This document shows positions 34,964 through 56,416 of a DNA stretch of 64,000 nt, in pieces. The position numbers and the translations under genes are program-made. The first letter of the stretch is position 1; every line of letters starts with the position of its first letter. A model generated the notes under the pieces. It searched no databases and was not told the origin of the DNA. It saw only the letters and a program-made list of their open reading frames with translations. This DNA is from Acidimicrobiales bacterium. GTDB taxonomy: Bacteria; Actinomycetota; Acidimicrobiia; Acidimicrobiales; SKKL01. The stretch covers positions 248,001 through 312,000 of the forward strand of contig JAXHLR010000002.1 in assembly GCA_034521975.1 (NCBI GenBank), in the 5' to 3' direction.

Positions 34964-36084
34964 CCACCACCTCGTGGCCTGCGCCGAACCTGCCGGCCAT
35001 GGAGCGCAGCGCCCGGTTCGATCGTGTGCGCCGGGAGATCTCCCGACACCGGGCCGATGCCCTGCTGGTCACCAAGCTGGTCAACCTCCGGTGGTTGACG
35101 GGTTTCAGTGGTTCTGCCGGAATGTTGCTGATCCTGCCCCGCCGATCGGTGCTGATCACCGACGGTCGCTACCGCGAGTCCGCTTCTGCCGAGCTCGCAG
35201 ATGCGCGAGTGGACGCGGAGCTCGCGGTCACCAGCGCACCGGGGGAGGTGCTCTCGGAGCTGACCCGCGAGGAGGAGCTCGGCTGTGTCGCGGCCGAGGC
35301 CGACGACCTCTCCTGGGCGAGCGCCCAGGTTGCCGACGCCAGCTGGTTCCCCGATGCCGAACTGGTGCCGACGACCGGGTTGATCGAGTCGCTGCGCGAG
35401 GTGAAGGAGTCGGCCGAGATCGCCCGCGCCGAAGCGGCTGCGGGCATCGCCGACGCAGCACTGGCCGAGGTCGTTCCCATGCTTCGTGCCGGTGCGACCG
35501 AGGTCGAGGTCGCGGTCGCCCTCGAGTCCGCCATGCGACGTCTCGGCGCCGAGGAGCCGGCGTTCGACACCATCGTGGCGTCAGGACCCAACTCGGCGGT
35601 ACCCCATCACCGCCCCACCGGCCGGGTGATCGAACAGGGTGATCTCGTGGTCATCGACATGGGGGCCACCGTCGACGGCTACCGATCCGACATGACCCGC
35701 ACCTTCGTGATCGGCGAGCCCTCCGACACCGCCGGGCGCCTGCTCGAGGTGGTGGCCGCGGCCCAGGCCGCCGGGGTGGAGGAGGTGGTCGCCGGCAGGC
35801 CGTGTCGTGACGTCGACGCCGCCGCTCGGAGGGTGGTCGCCGAGGCCGGGTGGGCCGAGGCGTTCGTACATCCCACCGGTCATGGGGTGGGCCTCGAGAT
35901 CCACGAGCGCCTTCGTCTCGCCGCGACCTCCGATGATACGCTCGCCGTCGGCCACGTGGTGACCGTCGAACCCGGGGTCTACCTGCCAGGGTTCGGTGGG
36001 GTCCGCATCGAGGACACCGTCGAGGTCACCGGCACCGGCTGTCGTCGTCTCACCCGTTCGTCCCACCACACCGTCCTCGGTTGA
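34960..36084 (+). CDS. M24-family aminopeptidase (Xaa-Pro peptidase-like)
   Basis: A 374-residue two-domain peptidase. The N-terminal creatinase-like domain (about 15-140) contains NLRWLTGFSGSAGMLLI; the pita-bread catalytic domain has the five metal ligands in VIDMGATVDGYRSDMTRTF, HPTGHGVGLEIHE, TVEPGVYLPGFGGVRIED. It probably removes N-terminal residues next to proline in the cytosol. Its place between aroQ and efp is conserved in actinobacteria, where it is annotated pepP or pepQ. GTG start overlaps the aroQ stop. Confidence 0.9.
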   Translation: MTTTSWPAPNLPAMERSARFDRVRREISRHRADALLVTKLVNLRWLTGFSGSAGMLLILPRRSVLITDGRYRESASAELADARVDAELAVTSAPGEVLSELTREEELGCVAAEADDLSWASAQVADASWFPDAELVPTTGLIESLREVKESAEIARAEAAAGIADAALAEVVPMLRAGATEVEVAVALESAMRRLGAEEPAFDTIVASGPNSAVPHHRPTGRVIEQGDLVVIDMGATVDGYRSDMTRTFVIGEPSDTAGRLLEVVAAAQAAGVEEVVAGRPCRDVDAAARRVVAEAGWAEAFVHPTGHGVGLEIHERLRLAATSDDTLAVGHVVTVEPGVYLPGFGGVRIEDTVEVTGTGCRRLTRSSHHTVLG

Positions 36085-36096
36085 GTCCGACCCCCT

Positions 36097-36120
36097 CATC
36101 TGTCCGCCCATCTGTCCGCC
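36097..36120 (+). repeat. 12-base perfect tandem duplication before efp
   Basis: CATCTGTCCGCC occurs twice in direct succession in the 55 bases between the peptidase and efp. It separates the two genes without an evident promoter; it could be a recent slippage duplication. Confidence 0.75.
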
Positions 36121-36139
36121 CGCGCGAGGAAGCACCAGC

Positions 36140-36703
36140 ATGCCCGCAGTCTCGACCAACGACCTGAAGAACGGGATGACCCTTGCCATCGACGGCGATC
36201 TGTTGAACGTCGTCGAGTTCCAGCACGTCAAGCCCGGCAAGGGCGGTGCCTTCGTCCGAACGAAGCTCAAGAACGCCCGCACCGGCGCCATCGTCGATCG
36301 CACCTTCCGTGCCGACGAGAAGCTCGAGCGGGCCATGATCGACAAGCGCGAGATGCAGTACCTCTACCACGACGGCACCGACTACATCTTCATGGACAGC
36401 GAGACCTACGACCAGCTCCACGTGCCTGCCGAGACCCTCGGCGACGCGGCGGGCTATCTGGTCGAGAGCGACACGGCCGTGCTCCAGATGTTCGGCACCG
36501 AGATCGTCGGGGTCGAGCTGCCCGCGGCGGTCGAGCTCACCGTGGCCGAGACCGAGCCGGGCATGCAGGGCGATCGGGTCTCGGGTGCCCGCAAGCCGGC
36601 GACCCTCCAGACGGGTCTGGTCGTGCAGGTGCCACTGTTCGTCAACGTGGGTGATCGGCTCAAGATCGACACCCGCTCGGGCGAGTACATCACCCGCGCG
36701 TGA
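36140..36703 (+). CDS. efp: Elongation factor P
   Basis: A 187-residue factor that relieves ribosome stalling at consecutive prolines. KOW-like domain I carries the loop VKPGKGGAFVRTKLKN with the tip Lys; domains II and III follow, ending VNVGDRLKIDTRSGEYITRA. The tip is Lys with flanking Gly, the form used in actinobacteria without EpmA or rhamnosyl-modification. GAGGA lies 9 bases before ATG 36140. Overlaps nusB by GTGA. Confidence 0.95.
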   Translation: MPAVSTNDLKNGMTLAIDGDLLNVVEFQHVKPGKGGAFVRTKLKNARTGAIVDRTFRADEKLERAMIDKREMQYLYHDGTDYIFMDSETYDQLHVPAETLGDAAGYLVESDTAVLQMFGTEIVGVELPAAVELTVAETEPGMQGDRVSGARKPATLQTGLVVQVPLFVNVGDRLKIDTRSGEYITRA

Positions 36704-37098
36704 GCGCCAGCCGCCGCGAGGCCCGCGAACGGGCCCTCGGGCTCCTCTACGAAGCCGAGGCACGCGACGTCGCCCCGGCGGCGGTGCTCGAATCGCTTCC
36801 GGTGCCTCCCGATCCCTACGCCGTCGACCTCGTCGTCGGGGTGGGCGACGACCAGGAGACCATCGACGAGCTCATCGGGCGCTTCGCCAAGGACTGGAAG
36901 CTCGAACGCATGCCTGCGATCGACCGGGCGGTGCTGCGGATGGCGATCCACGAGCTGATGTCGTGCCACGAGGTGCCGACCGGTGTCGCCATCTCCGAAG
37001 CGGTCGATCTCGCCACCCAGTACTCCACCGACGAATCGGGCCGGTTCGTCAACGGCATGCTGTCGCGCATCGCCGCCGAGGTCCGTCCCGACCCCTGA
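36700..37098 (+). CDS. nusB: Transcription antitermination factor NusB
   Basis: A 132-residue all-helical protein that with NusE (S10) binds boxA of rRNA leaders. It begins RREARERALGLLYEAE and ends with DLATQYSTDESGRFVNGMLSRIA, both typical. GTG overlaps the efp stop. It is the last gene before the pyr promoter. Confidence 0.94.
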   Translation: MSASRREARERALGLLYEAEARDVAPAAVLESLPVPPDPYAVDLVVGVGDDQETIDELIGRFAKDWKLERMPAIDRAVLRMAIHELMSCHEVPTGVAISEAVDLATQYSTDESGRFVNGMLSRIAAEVRPDP

Positions 37099-37108
37099 CC
37101 GTGCCTGC

Positions 37109-37114
37109 TATGAT
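37109..37114 (+). promoter_or_regulatory. -10 element of the pyr operon
   Basis: TATGAT at 37109-37114 predicts transcription from about 37121, giving a leader of about 50 bases that contains the PyrR-binding loop and a strong Shine-Dalgarno sequence. Confidence 0.5.
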
Positions 37115-37124
37115 CTCGCTCTGA

Positions 37125-37155
37125 CCGTGAAGCGGGTCCCGTGAGGCCCGAACGG
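37125..37155 (+). promoter_or_regulatory. PyrR-binding RNA hairpin
   Basis: Lower stem CCGT (37125-37128) with ACGG (37152-37155); a purine bulge GAAG (37129-37132) on the 5' side; upper stem CGGG (37133-37136) with CCCG (37147-37150); loop TCCCGTGAGG (37137-37146). This fits the known PyrR consensus UCCNGNGAGG with 5' purine bulge. The Shine-Dalgarno sequence AGGAAGG (37158-37164) begins 3 bases after the hairpin, so bound PyrR would hinder ribosome loading. Confidence 0.85.
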
Positions 37156-37171
37156 ACAGGAAGGCACGCAC

Positions 37172-37762
37172 TTGGCTCGACGTGAACGACCACACACGCC
37201 CCCGCGCGGGGGCGTTTTTCTTGCCCGCAGCCAGGTCCTCGACGCCGACGACATCCGGCGGGCGCTGCGCCGCATGGCCCATGAGGTGATCGAGCGCAAC
37301 CACGGGCTCGAACACGTGGTGGTGATCGGGCTCCAGACCGGCGGGGTCCCCCTGGCCGGGGCGCTGGCCGAGGCTCTCGCCGCCATCGAAGGTCGTCAGG
37401 TCCCAACCGGCTCGCTCGACGTGGCCTTCCACCGTGACGACATCGGGCTGCGGCCGATCATGCCCGAGGCGGTCACCGAGATCCCGGTCGACCTCACCGG
37501 GCGAGTGGTCGTCCTTGTCGACGACGTGCTGTTCACCGGGCGCACCGTGCGGGCTGGTCTCGACGCGCTCGCCAACTTCGGGCGGCCGCAGGCCATCCAG
37601 CTGGCGGTGATGGTCGACCGTGGCCACCGCGAGCTGCCCATCCGTCCCGACTTCGTGGGGAAGAACCTGCCCACCCGTCGCGACGAGGTGGTCGATGTGA
37701 CCCTCGATGGCGTGCGCCTGGGCGAGCTCGGCGACCCACCAACGGGGGAGGGGGACAGGTGA
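37172..37762 (+). CDS. pyrR: Pyrimidine operon regulator / uracil phosphoribosyltransferase-like
   Basis: A 196-residue protein: PRPP-binding loop [21 protein letters not shown] (about 113-133), [11 protein letters not shown], and [10 protein letters not shown]. PyrR senses UMP/UTP and binds the leader hairpin to reduce pyr expression; many also have UPRTase activity. TTG 37172 is 7 bases after AGGAAGG and is the only usable start: no ATG, GTG or TTG lies between it and the conserved [17 protein letters not shown]. The first 17 codons therefore run through an intrinsic terminator (37197-37219) and add a PRGG-containing N-terminal extension not usual in PyrR. GTGA overlap with pyrB. Confidence 0.9.
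37197..37219 (+). terminator. Intrinsic terminator inside pyrR codons 9-16
   Basis: CGCCCCC (37197-37203), loop GCGC, GGGGGCG (37208-37214), then TTTTT (37215-37219): a perfect 7-base-pair G+C stem plus U-tract. It is translated as the PPRGGVF stretch of PyrR. Ribosomes moving through it would prevent folding. Confidence 0.85.
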
Positions 37763-38709
37763 AGCACCTCCTGTCGATCCGCGATCTCGGAGCCGACGGC
37801 ATCGCCGAGGTTCACGACCTCACCGACAGCTTCGTCGAGGTCAGCTCCCGGGCCATCCCCAAGGTCCCGGCGCTGCGGGGCCGAACGGTGGCGTGGCTGT
37901 TCTACGAGGACTCCACACGCACCCGCACCTCCTTCGAGGCCGCCGCCCGCCGACTGTCGGCCGACACGGTGAACTTCAGCGTCGGGTCGTCGTCGGTGAA
38001 CAAGGGCGAATCGCTGCGCGACACCGCCCTCACCATCCAGGCCATGGGCGTCGATGCCATCGTGGTGCGCCACGCCTCGGCGGGGGTGCCGTGGCAGCTC
38101 ACCCGCTGGCTCGACGCCTCGGTCGTCAACGCGGGCGACGGGTGGCACGAACACCCGACACAGGCACTGCTCGACACCTACACGCTGCGCGAGCGGCTGG
38201 GAGGCCTCGATGGCCGGCGCATCGCCATCATCGGCGACATCAAGCACTCGCGGGTGGCGGGCAGCAACGTGCACGCGTTCACCGCCATGGGTGCCGAGGT
38301 GGTGCTGGTGGCACCGCCAACGTTGCTACCGGCGAACCTCGATGCCTGGCCGGTCGAGGTGAGCCACGACCTCGATGCCGTGTTGCCCACCGTCGATGTC
38401 GCCTACACCCTGCGGATGCAACTCGAACGCCAGCGCGCCGCGCCGGTGCCGAGCCTCCGCGAGTTCACCCACCGCTACGGGCTCAGCGCCGAGCGGGCCG
38501 CGCGGCTGCCCGAGCACGCGTTGGTGATGCACCCCGGACCCATGAACCGGGGTGTCGAGATCGCCGCCGAGGTGGCCGACGGGCCCCGGTCGGTGATCCT
38601 CGACCAGGTCCGGAACGGGGTGGCGGTGCGCATGGCGGTGCTGTTCTTGTTGTTGGGGTCGGGACGTCCCGACGAACGAGTGGAGGGGACGGTGGCCGCA
38701 CGTGGCTGA
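37759..38709 (+). CDS. pyrB: Aspartate carbamoyltransferase, catalytic
   Basis: A 316-residue enzyme making carbamoyl-aspartate. It shows [12 protein letters not shown] for carbamoyl phosphate, [38 protein letters not shown] and [12 protein letters not shown]. There is no pyrI, as usual for this operon type. The end overlaps pyrC by 8 bases. Confidence 0.95.
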
Positions 38710-39982
38710 ACTGGTCATCAGGGGCGGGACGATCATCGACCCGAACGGCAGTCACGAGACCGACGTGGCCATCGCCGACGGTCGGGTGGTCGAGCTCGGA
38801 ACGGATCTCGATGGCGACCGGATCCTCGACGCGTCGGGCTGCATCGTCAGTCCCGGCTTCGTCGACCTCCACACCCATCTTCGCCAGCCCGGCCGCGAAG
38901 AGGCCGAGACCATCGGGAGTGGGGCCAGGGCGGCCGCCCGGGGCGGCTTCACCGCCGTGGTCGCCATGCCGAACACCACGCCGGCCATGGACTCGGCCTC
39001 GGTGGTGGCCGAGGTCCTCGAGCTCGGCAACGGCGTCTCCTGCGAGATCCTGGCGTCGGGTGCCATCACCGTGGGGCGCGAGGGCGAACAGCTGTCGCCC
39101 ATGGGCGAGCTGGCCGATCTGGGGGTGAACATCTTCACCGACGACGGAACCGGGGTGCAGGACGACGCGGTCATGCGGCGCGCCATGGAGTACGCCCGCG
39201 GGCTGGGGGTGACCCTGGCCCAGCACTGTGAGGTGACCAGCCTGTCGGCCGGGACCTGCATGCACGAGGGCGAGTGGTCGACCCGTCTCGGGTTGCCGGG
39301 CCAGCCCGCAGAGGCCGAAGAGCTGATGGTGTCCCGCGACATCGCCCTGTCGGGCCTCACGGGTGCACGGATCCACTTCCAGCACCTCTCCACCGGTGGT
39401 TCGGTCGAGCTGGTGCGGGCAGCCAAGGCCCAGGGCCTCCCCGTCACCGCGGAGGCCGCCACCCACCACTTCACCCTCACCGACGCGTGCGTCGGGTCCT
39501 ACGACCCGGTGTTCAAGGTCCACCCGCCCCTGCGCAGCAGTGCCGACGTGGCTGCAGTGCGCGCCGGGCTCGTCGACGGCACCATCGACGCCATCGCCAC
39601 CGACCACGCGCCCCACACCAGCCAGGACAAGGAACGACCCTTCGACGCCGCGCCGCCGGGCATGCTGGGGCTCGAGACGGCCCTGGCGCTGGCCATCACC
39701 GAGCTCGGTGATCAGCTCGACCTCGACCACATCGTCGCACTGCTCTCGTGGCGCCCCGCTGTCATCGCCGGCGCCGCCGACCGCCACGGTCGTCCCGTCG
39801 CTCCGGGCGAGCCGGCCAACCTGGCCGTGTTCGACCCGACCGCCACCTGGACCGTCGACCCCGCCGACACCGCCAGCCGAAGCCGCAACACCCCCTATGC
39901 CGGTCGCACCCTCACCGGCCGAGTCCGCCACACCCTCTTGTGGGGCCAACCCACCGTGATCGATGGAGCAACCACCCGATGA
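38702..39982 (+). CDS. pyrC: Dihydroorotase
   Basis: A 426-residue zinc amidohydrolase (class I). Metal residues are in [14 protein letters not shown], an Asp in NIFTDDGTG, His in [11 protein letters not shown] and Asp in [12 protein letters not shown]. It cyclises carbamoyl-aspartate. GTG 38702 lies inside pyrB and the stop overlaps carA by ATGA. Confidence 0.95.
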
Positions 39983-56251: not shown

Positions 56252-56274
56252 TTGATGTGACAACTACACGACAT

Positions 56275-56390
56275 CTCGCGGGGTTGGGTGAAACTCCCGA
56301 CCGGCGGTGAGAGCCCGCGAACCCTGGCTCCGGCCAGGGCCGACCCGGTGGAACTCCGGGGCCGACGGTGACAGTCCGGATGGGAGCGAG
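56275..56390 (+). ncRNA. FMN riboswitch aptamer (RFN element)
   Basis: The conserved RFN cores are present: GGGTGAAACTCCCGACCGG, CGGTGAGAGCCCGCGA and, after a variable P4-like hairpin, GGTGGAACTCCGG then CGGTGACAGTCCGGATG, ending GGGAGCGAGAG. Helix P1 pairs CTCGC (56275-56279) with GCGAG (56386-56390). FMN binding stabilises P1 and should lower expression of the riboflavin genes. Confidence 0.95.
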
Positions 56391-56416
56391 AGCACGCAGG
56401 GCACCGGTCCCTGCCC

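Follow-up and report, generated by a model that had tools for sequence, protein, structure and literature searches.

In the Acidimicrobiales genome considered here, pyrR is probably controlled by a translated terminator that PyrR itself gates. A PyrR-type loop adjoins the ribosome-binding site of the gene, an intrinsic terminator lies within its first codons, and binding of the regulator would block translation and leave the terminator free to form. Sequence comparison provides support for this explanation: the anatomy of the leader and the position of a -10-like element fit it, selection acts at the RNA level, the arrangement does not depend on the gene upstream, and it recurs before carA.

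Layout of the pyrR leader

The stretch of DNA analysed, 64 kb in length and referred to below as the window, carries the gene order efp-nusB-pyrR-pyrB-pyrC-carA-carB, all on the + strand. NCBIfam matches identify nusB, pyrR, pyrB and pyrC, while the other three genes we take to be efp, carA and carB from reading their translations. nusB ends at 37098, just 5' of the pyrR leader. The main features are as follows.

37106–37114, + strand: extended -10-like element TGCTATGAT, from sequence; predicted transcript start at about 37121
37125–37155, + strand: PyrR-type loop, putative binding site, from sequence, fold and conservation
37158–37164, + strand: Shine-Dalgarno sequence AGGAAGG, 2 nt 3' of the loop, from sequence
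37172–37762, + strand: pyrR, TTG start, 196 amino acids (NCBIfam NF003549)
37196–37215, + strand: putative terminator hairpin ACGCCCCC-GCGC-GGGGGCGT, codons 9–16 of pyrR, -16.6 kcal/mol
37215–37219, + strand: putative terminator U-tract (GTT TTT codons), from sequence and codon bias in relatives
from 37759, + strand: pyrB (NCBIfam), would be cut off by the terminator
from 38702, + strand: pyrC (NCBIfam), would be cut off by the terminator
reading frame to 41082, + strand: presumed carA, from its translation, would be cut off by the terminator

The loop consists of a lower stem of CCGU (37125–37128) and ACGG (37152–37155), an upper stem of CGGGUC (37133–37138) and GGCCCG (37145–37150), and the hexaloop CCGUGA. 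Its exact pattern occurs once in this genome and it is presumably of the PyrR type, as judged from the consensus features that we associate with PyrR loops and from its conservation in the loci compared here. The Shine-Dalgarno sequence is followed, after a 7-nt spacer, by the TTG start at 37172, and the hairpin begins 24 nt after the first base of that codon. A preliminary description of this DNA had placed the loop, the Shine-Dalgarno sequence, the TTG and a terminator in pyrR codons 9–16 at these positions, and each of them is confirmed.

When a strict terminator was defined as a hairpin of -12 kcal/mol or below that ends 3' in four or more T in a row, that of the pyrR leader was the only one on either strand of the whole 64 kb. 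The fold of the 108-nt leader as a whole was not unusual relative to shuffled sequences (z -0.52), a comparison that is uninformative here. No Rfam family reached its gathering score at the loop, and the four matches obtained up to E = 10 over 36900–37400 included no PyrR leader family. Elsewhere in the window an FMN riboswitch (RF00050, 98.6 bits) is located at 56270–56395 on the + strand. A sigma-70 scan requiring a -35 hexamer yielded no promoter in 36000–39000. Neither a promoter-like sequence nor a TANNNT site occurs in the window between the hairpin and the region encoding the PyrR fold, an absence that agrees with the preliminary description.

The encoded protein is a PyrR, with a score of 219.8 bits for NF003549 against a cut-off of 138. 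PyrR relatives in the PDB align only from residue 19 onward, leaving residues 1–18 outside the known fold, and residues 1–13 have pLDDT values below 50 in a structural model; together the low model confidence and the onset of alignment place the extension outside the enzyme fold. The next in-frame ATG, GTG or TTG after the start at 37172 is the ATG at 37274 (codon 35), within the PyrR fold, and thus initiation at one of these codons could not skip the hairpin here. The earlier claim that no later start could do so holds for the window. In 30 of 39 genomes (93 of 140 loci) there is an ATG at codon 23, 3' of the hairpin, where the window has CTC. This ATG aligns to a residue of the PyrR fold, and internal initiation may occur there in the relatives. 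In the loci compared, the extension also carries AERERR directly after the start, a conserved protein motif in which R4, E5 and R6 are each present in 85 of the 86 loci with a 17-codon extension. Its codons, unlike those of the hairpin, show synonymous variation near background, and the version in the window is ARRERP (37175–37192).

Conservation in the order and selection on the RNA

pyrR was detected in 39 of 41 genomes, that of the window included, and the 39 span 36 families. The order set of 148 loci, reduced to 140 once loci identical over 100 nt were removed, comprised these 39 together with 80 relative contigs and further order members. The contigs were the best 80 of 532, metagenome assemblies according to their titles, and all were placed in the order by similarity, some being titled only as Actinomycetota, bacterium or Acidobacteria. 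Alignment A1 and model R1 cover 30 of the 39 loci; those left out (L015, L027, L029, L031, L032, L033, L035, L036 and L039) mostly lack the terminator. Matches to R1 occur in 188 of the 198 genomes from the order and in 65 of the 149 from the phylum, and since the model includes coding positions these counts are no independent proof of the terminator. Loci from about L074 to L088 were read by script, and the automatic choice of start was wrong or doubtful in some cases, for example L015, L199, L201 and L140.

A PyrR-type loop was recognised by eye just 5' of pyrR in all 39 genomes and by a regular expression in 137 of 148 order loci, with most of the 11 loci missed showing variant or partly shown loops by eye. 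The upper stem carries base changes on both sides (A1, 30 of the 39 loci). Of 128 order loci, 123 carry a TANNNT sequence in the 25 nt immediately 5' of the loop, where random stretches would give 4.2, and in 80 it sits at one single offset. This fixed -10-like element argues that the hairpin belongs to pyrR's own leader, and is not the end of an upstream operon, and that the transcript should begin at the loop. The genes upstream vary. A nusB match was obtained by tblastn in 49 of 127 order loci and in 78 there was none, some perhaps having been missed; among 16 of these 78 that were inspected by reading frames, several have no adjacent same-strand frame, and four upstream frames that were tested yielded one Uma2, two GNAT and one without a match. 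Loci L008, L012 and L197 retain the terminator behind a context other than nusB. As judged from these comparisons, the terminator is independent of the upstream gene.

The strict terminator is present in 25 of the 39 genomes and weaker or absent in 14. Among 132 loci with an open extension it occurs in 76, against a mean of 2.87 and a maximum of 8 in 200 synonymous recodings, in which codons were redrawn from the pyrR usage of the compared loci. A looser test for a perfect stem gave 27 of the 37 loci tested from the first set of 39, against a mean of 3.19 and a maximum of 8 in such recodings. The strict definition was fixed after a laxer one had proved too permissive because the V-F-V codons are T-rich: it accepted 99 of 132 loci, but also 61.9 on average (maximum 74) after recoding. 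By the strict test the terminator is weaker or absent in 56 of the 132 loci, and losses take several forms: there is no extension in L036 and L039, an extension without a hairpin in, for example, L031, L033 and L035, whereas in others, such as L009, L024 and L026, the stem remains but its U-tract is weak or absent.

Codon choice follows the needs of the hairpin and its U-tract. GTT encodes V(-3) in 80 of 99 loci and V(-1) in 59 of 91, each against a background of 8.9%, F(-2) is TTT in 53 of 123 against 15.7% and G(-5) is GGG in 79 of 110 against 21.4%, with tiny binomial p values from tests that ignore shared ancestry. Synonymous changes are depleted at codons 9, 10, 13, 14 and 15, and close to background at codons 2–8 and at codon 11, the third base of which falls in the hairpin loop.

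The silent third positions of the P(-8) and G(-5) codons oppose each other in the stem. They are paired in 76 of 83 loci (CG 68, GC 4, TA 4, with 7 mismatched) against 62.3 expected, a number reached in none of 5000 permutations, which likewise disregard shared ancestry. Where GTT is present at -3 all 65 loci are paired (CG 61, TA 4), whereas without it 11 of 18 are (CG 7, GC 4, mismatched 7); in this set, then, every locus with a mismatch has also lost the U-tract codon. All four GC pairs are in loci without GTT. A changed pair with an intact U-tract is confined to the four TA loci, which seem to represent two lineages (L199/L201 and L212/L223), and few independent compensations therefore underlie the silent-site pairing. 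The other silent pair in the stem, T(-9):G(-4), hardly varies and gave no signal (88 of 103 against 87.1 expected; 1623 of 5000 permutations as high).

A strict terminator can persist on an altered stem where the peptide differs, as in L020 (ACGCGCCC/GGGCGCGT), L037 (GTGCCCTC/GAGGGCAC), L034 (CGCCGCC/GGCGGCG) and L028 (a 12-pair stem), and further variants followed by only three T in a row in L046, L047, L053 and L091. Leaders usually fold into the terminator stem, with a median pair probability of 0.97 and values above 0.9 in 77% of 96 loci. A competing upstream pairing of the 5' arm lies within 3 kcal/mol in 24 of the 96, the lowest stem probability being 0.03, and an antiterminator is accordingly possible in some loci.

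On these sequence data the terminator is neither a chance occurrence nor a by-product of the peptide, and selection acts on the RNA. Peptide conservation as the cause of the hairpin is ruled out by the synonymous recoding and the silent-site pairing. Pausing at Pro-Pro was also considered as the purpose of the conserved codons and dropped, PP having been lost in L020, L046 and L091, which retain the hairpin. The comparison of 5' regions among relatives thus came out mostly in favour of the preliminary description. Its proposal that the regulator's own N-terminus serves as the leader peptide is well supported by anatomy and conservation; its model of a translation-gated terminator is partly supported, with PyrR binding, termination in the cell and melting of the hairpin by the ribosome as predicted steps. 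The phenomenon also reaches further than that description, to carA and to separate leader frames in other classes.

Leaders before carA and in other classes

More than one R1 match was found in 9 of the 198 order genomes, and in five genomes, from one family and two genera, the second match precedes carA. CarA was identified by PF00988 in G396, and the other four carA genes were read from translation. The leader is here a separate open reading frame of 22–31 codons, the stop of which overlaps the carA start by four bases in all five (L283, L284, L285, L286 and L287), and a terminator-like hairpin with a T run lies inside it in four of the five. Among the pyrR copies of these genomes a four-T tract is present only in G417 (L274), and the pyrR terminator is weak or lost in G437, G396, G005 and G456 (L275, L276, L279 and L280). 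The differing losses suggest that the pyrR and carA leaders evolve separately, with carA keeping in three genomes the feature that pyrR has lost; a joint decay of the two, considered for G005, is contradicted by the five-genome comparison. In a sixth genome, G057 (L281), carA is preceded by a loop and a leader frame of 35 codons in which the scan detected no terminator. This carA leader (L281:1500–1700) forms a long stable hairpin, with a z of -2.03 for the whole stretch and no U-tract. Weak R1 matches are also present in G389, G426 and G331 (L289, L291, L282 and L290; E 3.6e-4 to 0.005).

Outside the order, pyrR was present in 137 of 148 class genomes, of which about 90 5' regions were read, most low-scoring or small-genome matches being omitted, and in 153 of 158 phylum genomes, of which about 70 were read, mainly one or two per family; near repeats were retained in both sets. 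In other orders of the class the loop occurs in 52 of 54 loci and the terminator, by a looser scan, in 19. A start was assigned in 17 of these, and the terminator is in frame with it in all 17, whereas each of the other two frames gives 11. Three loci from these orders (L055, L059 and L066) have terminator-like hairpins within a different PyrR extension, the peptide of which carries GGRFVF.

In other classes the loop is present in 52 of 59 loci and a terminator in 25. In 23 of the 25 the frame that opens at the chosen start is distinct from pyrR. It runs through the stem in 19, against 10 and 18 of 25 in the other two frames, and a hairpin crossed by an open frame thus says little in DNA so rich in GC. 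Several of the leader frames (in L124, L128, L134, L137 and L143) are 15–16 amino acids long, with a stop that directly follows the U-tract and overlaps a start of pyrR. A leader stop near the gene start was found in 13 of 23 loci, a nearness that is weak evidence because TGA after A, G or T automatically creates a start codon in one frame. Six loci (L155, L159, L160, L167, L168 and L173), whose class we guess to be Actinomycetes, have the loop and start and no terminator. In L139 a partial duplicate of the pyrR 5' end is visible by eye between the leader terminator and pyrR.

Whether PyrR-gated translated terminators constitute a general and probably old pyrimidine control in several actinobacterial classes, with either a separate leader peptide that stops at the start of the following gene (pyrR of other classes and carA of one family) or, in the present order, a fused PyrR N-terminus, we judge to be evenly balanced, and the weak frame control leaves this wider reading only moderately supported.

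Proposed mechanism, alternatives and known systems

Judging by the conserved -10-like element, the transcript would begin at the PyrR loop. When pyrimidine nucleotides are ample, PyrR would bind the loop beside the Shine-Dalgarno sequence and block initiation at the TTG; the untranslated RNA would then fold the hairpin of codons 9–16 and RNA polymerase would halt at the U-tract, silencing pyrR together with its downstream genes. When pyrimidines are scarce, the loop would be unoccupied, a ribosome would initiate and its footprint would hold the hairpin open, allowing transcription to continue. No antiterminator would be required, translation itself being the antiterminator, and the first 16–17 codons of pyrR would encode a leader peptide joined to PyrR itself.

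The chief doubt about this PyrR-gated mechanism concerns timing. The hairpin follows the first base of the start codon by 24 nt in the window and mostly by 23–24 nt in the order loci, which requires either immediate loading of the ribosome or a pause of the polymerase. The available parts of PMC5021804 report for pyrBI of Escherichia coli that a terminator within a leader reading frame can be overcome by a ribosome, and also that the pyrL hairpin in a translated reporter still lowered expression about 18-fold. In PMC4824070, as far as its available parts go, a terminator placed 30 bp after an AUG worked in E. coli without ribosomal repression, which suggests that a pause or second input is probably needed here. 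The timely arrival of the ribosome may depend on transcription being slow at low UTP, as it is in pyrBI; such a UTP-dependent slow-down would solve the timing and make the device a two-input sensor.

Carried further, the same thought gives an alternative in which the terminator mainly reads the speed of RNA polymerase and PyrR is a separate translational block: at high UTP the polymerase would outrun the ribosome and terminate, and at low UTP the ribosome would melt the hairpin. This would answer the timing problem, and the available parts of PMC4824070 and PMC5021804 describe the same layout for E. coli pyrBI, with a terminator within the leader gene. We nevertheless consider it unlikely; no U-rich tract lies 5' of the hairpin in the window, and the loop stays by the start where the terminator is absent (L036 and L039), such that control by PyrR looks constant.

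Attenuation of the Bacillus type, in which the free leader would form an antiterminator that PyrR dissolves and the frame through the terminator would be incidental, appears quite improbable. A PyrR and a PyrR-type loop 5' of a terminator are what it predicts, as are the competing pairings found in a quarter of the leaders folded, but the terminator stem is the usual fold and the hairpin lies 3' of the Shine-Dalgarno sequence and start codon, inside the gene. Still less probable, in our estimate, is a role of the hairpin in mRNA stability or in initiation at weak starts, with no termination: 79 of the 109 order loci with a fused leader were assigned a GTG or TTG start and the distance from start to hairpin is nearly constant, yet the U-tract is also under selection, as the GTT excess at V(-3) and V(-1) indicates. 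That the hairpin ends the efp-nusB unit and overlaps pyrR by chance is hardly credible and was rejected, for in spite of the adjoining nusB, matched upstream in many order loci, most of the loci searched gave no nusB match, the hairpin is kept behind other genes, pyrR has its own -10-like element 5' of it and a copy precedes carA.

Parts of the proposed PyrR-gated control have counterparts elsewhere. Mycobacterial PyrR acts by translational repression through a loop beside the pyrR ribosome-binding site, and we know of no terminator in that repression; the proximity of the loop to the Shine-Dalgarno sequence (2 nt) and start is shared, whereas control by translation only does not describe the present case, in which a conserved terminator is present. 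E. coli pyrBI is controlled by UTP through polymerase pausing, without PyrR. Its leader gene, pyrL, encodes a separate leader peptide, whereas the frame in the window is the regulator's own N-terminus beside a PyrR loop. A pyrimidine operon and a terminator inside a reading frame are common to both, and translation suppresses that of pyrBI, according to the available parts of PMC5021804 and PMC4824070. By analogy, the device would work like pyrBI with PyrR as gatekeeper.

PyrR attenuation in B. subtilis is described, in the available part of PMC4347634, as using an antiterminator and an anti-antiterminator. PyrR, a putative PyrR-binding loop and an intrinsic terminator are shared with that system, but here the terminator is inside the coding sequence and not upstream, and no conserved antiterminator was found in the leader among the 96 loci, 24 of them with competing pairings. 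The M-box of Mycobacterium tuberculosis combines a translational platform with Rho-dependent termination (PMC12810186, available part). It resembles the present case in tying ligand control of translation to termination, and differs in that the RNA senses the ligand and Rho is needed, whereas here a protein binder is predicted, with an intrinsic terminator in the first codons. The arrangement was not found described in the open-access literature among the matches listed (which include the best 20 of 27, 10 of 652 and 10 of 62), subscription papers falling mostly outside this scope, and this is weak evidence of novelty.

If the proposed control operates, it would show how repression of translation can silence the transcription of an operon with neither Rho nor an antiterminator, and it would link three separately known pyrimidine controls, those of Bacillus PyrR, mycobacterial PyrR and E. 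coli pyrBI. Attenuators within coding sequences can escape screens of untranslated regions, and one attenuator survey speaks, in its available part, of UTR sequences (PMC2965389). The N-terminal extension of these PyrR proteins would be explained largely by a regulatory RNA and not by protein function and, if the wider reading is true, the regulator's own protein sequence would have been shaped by the terminator that it controls.
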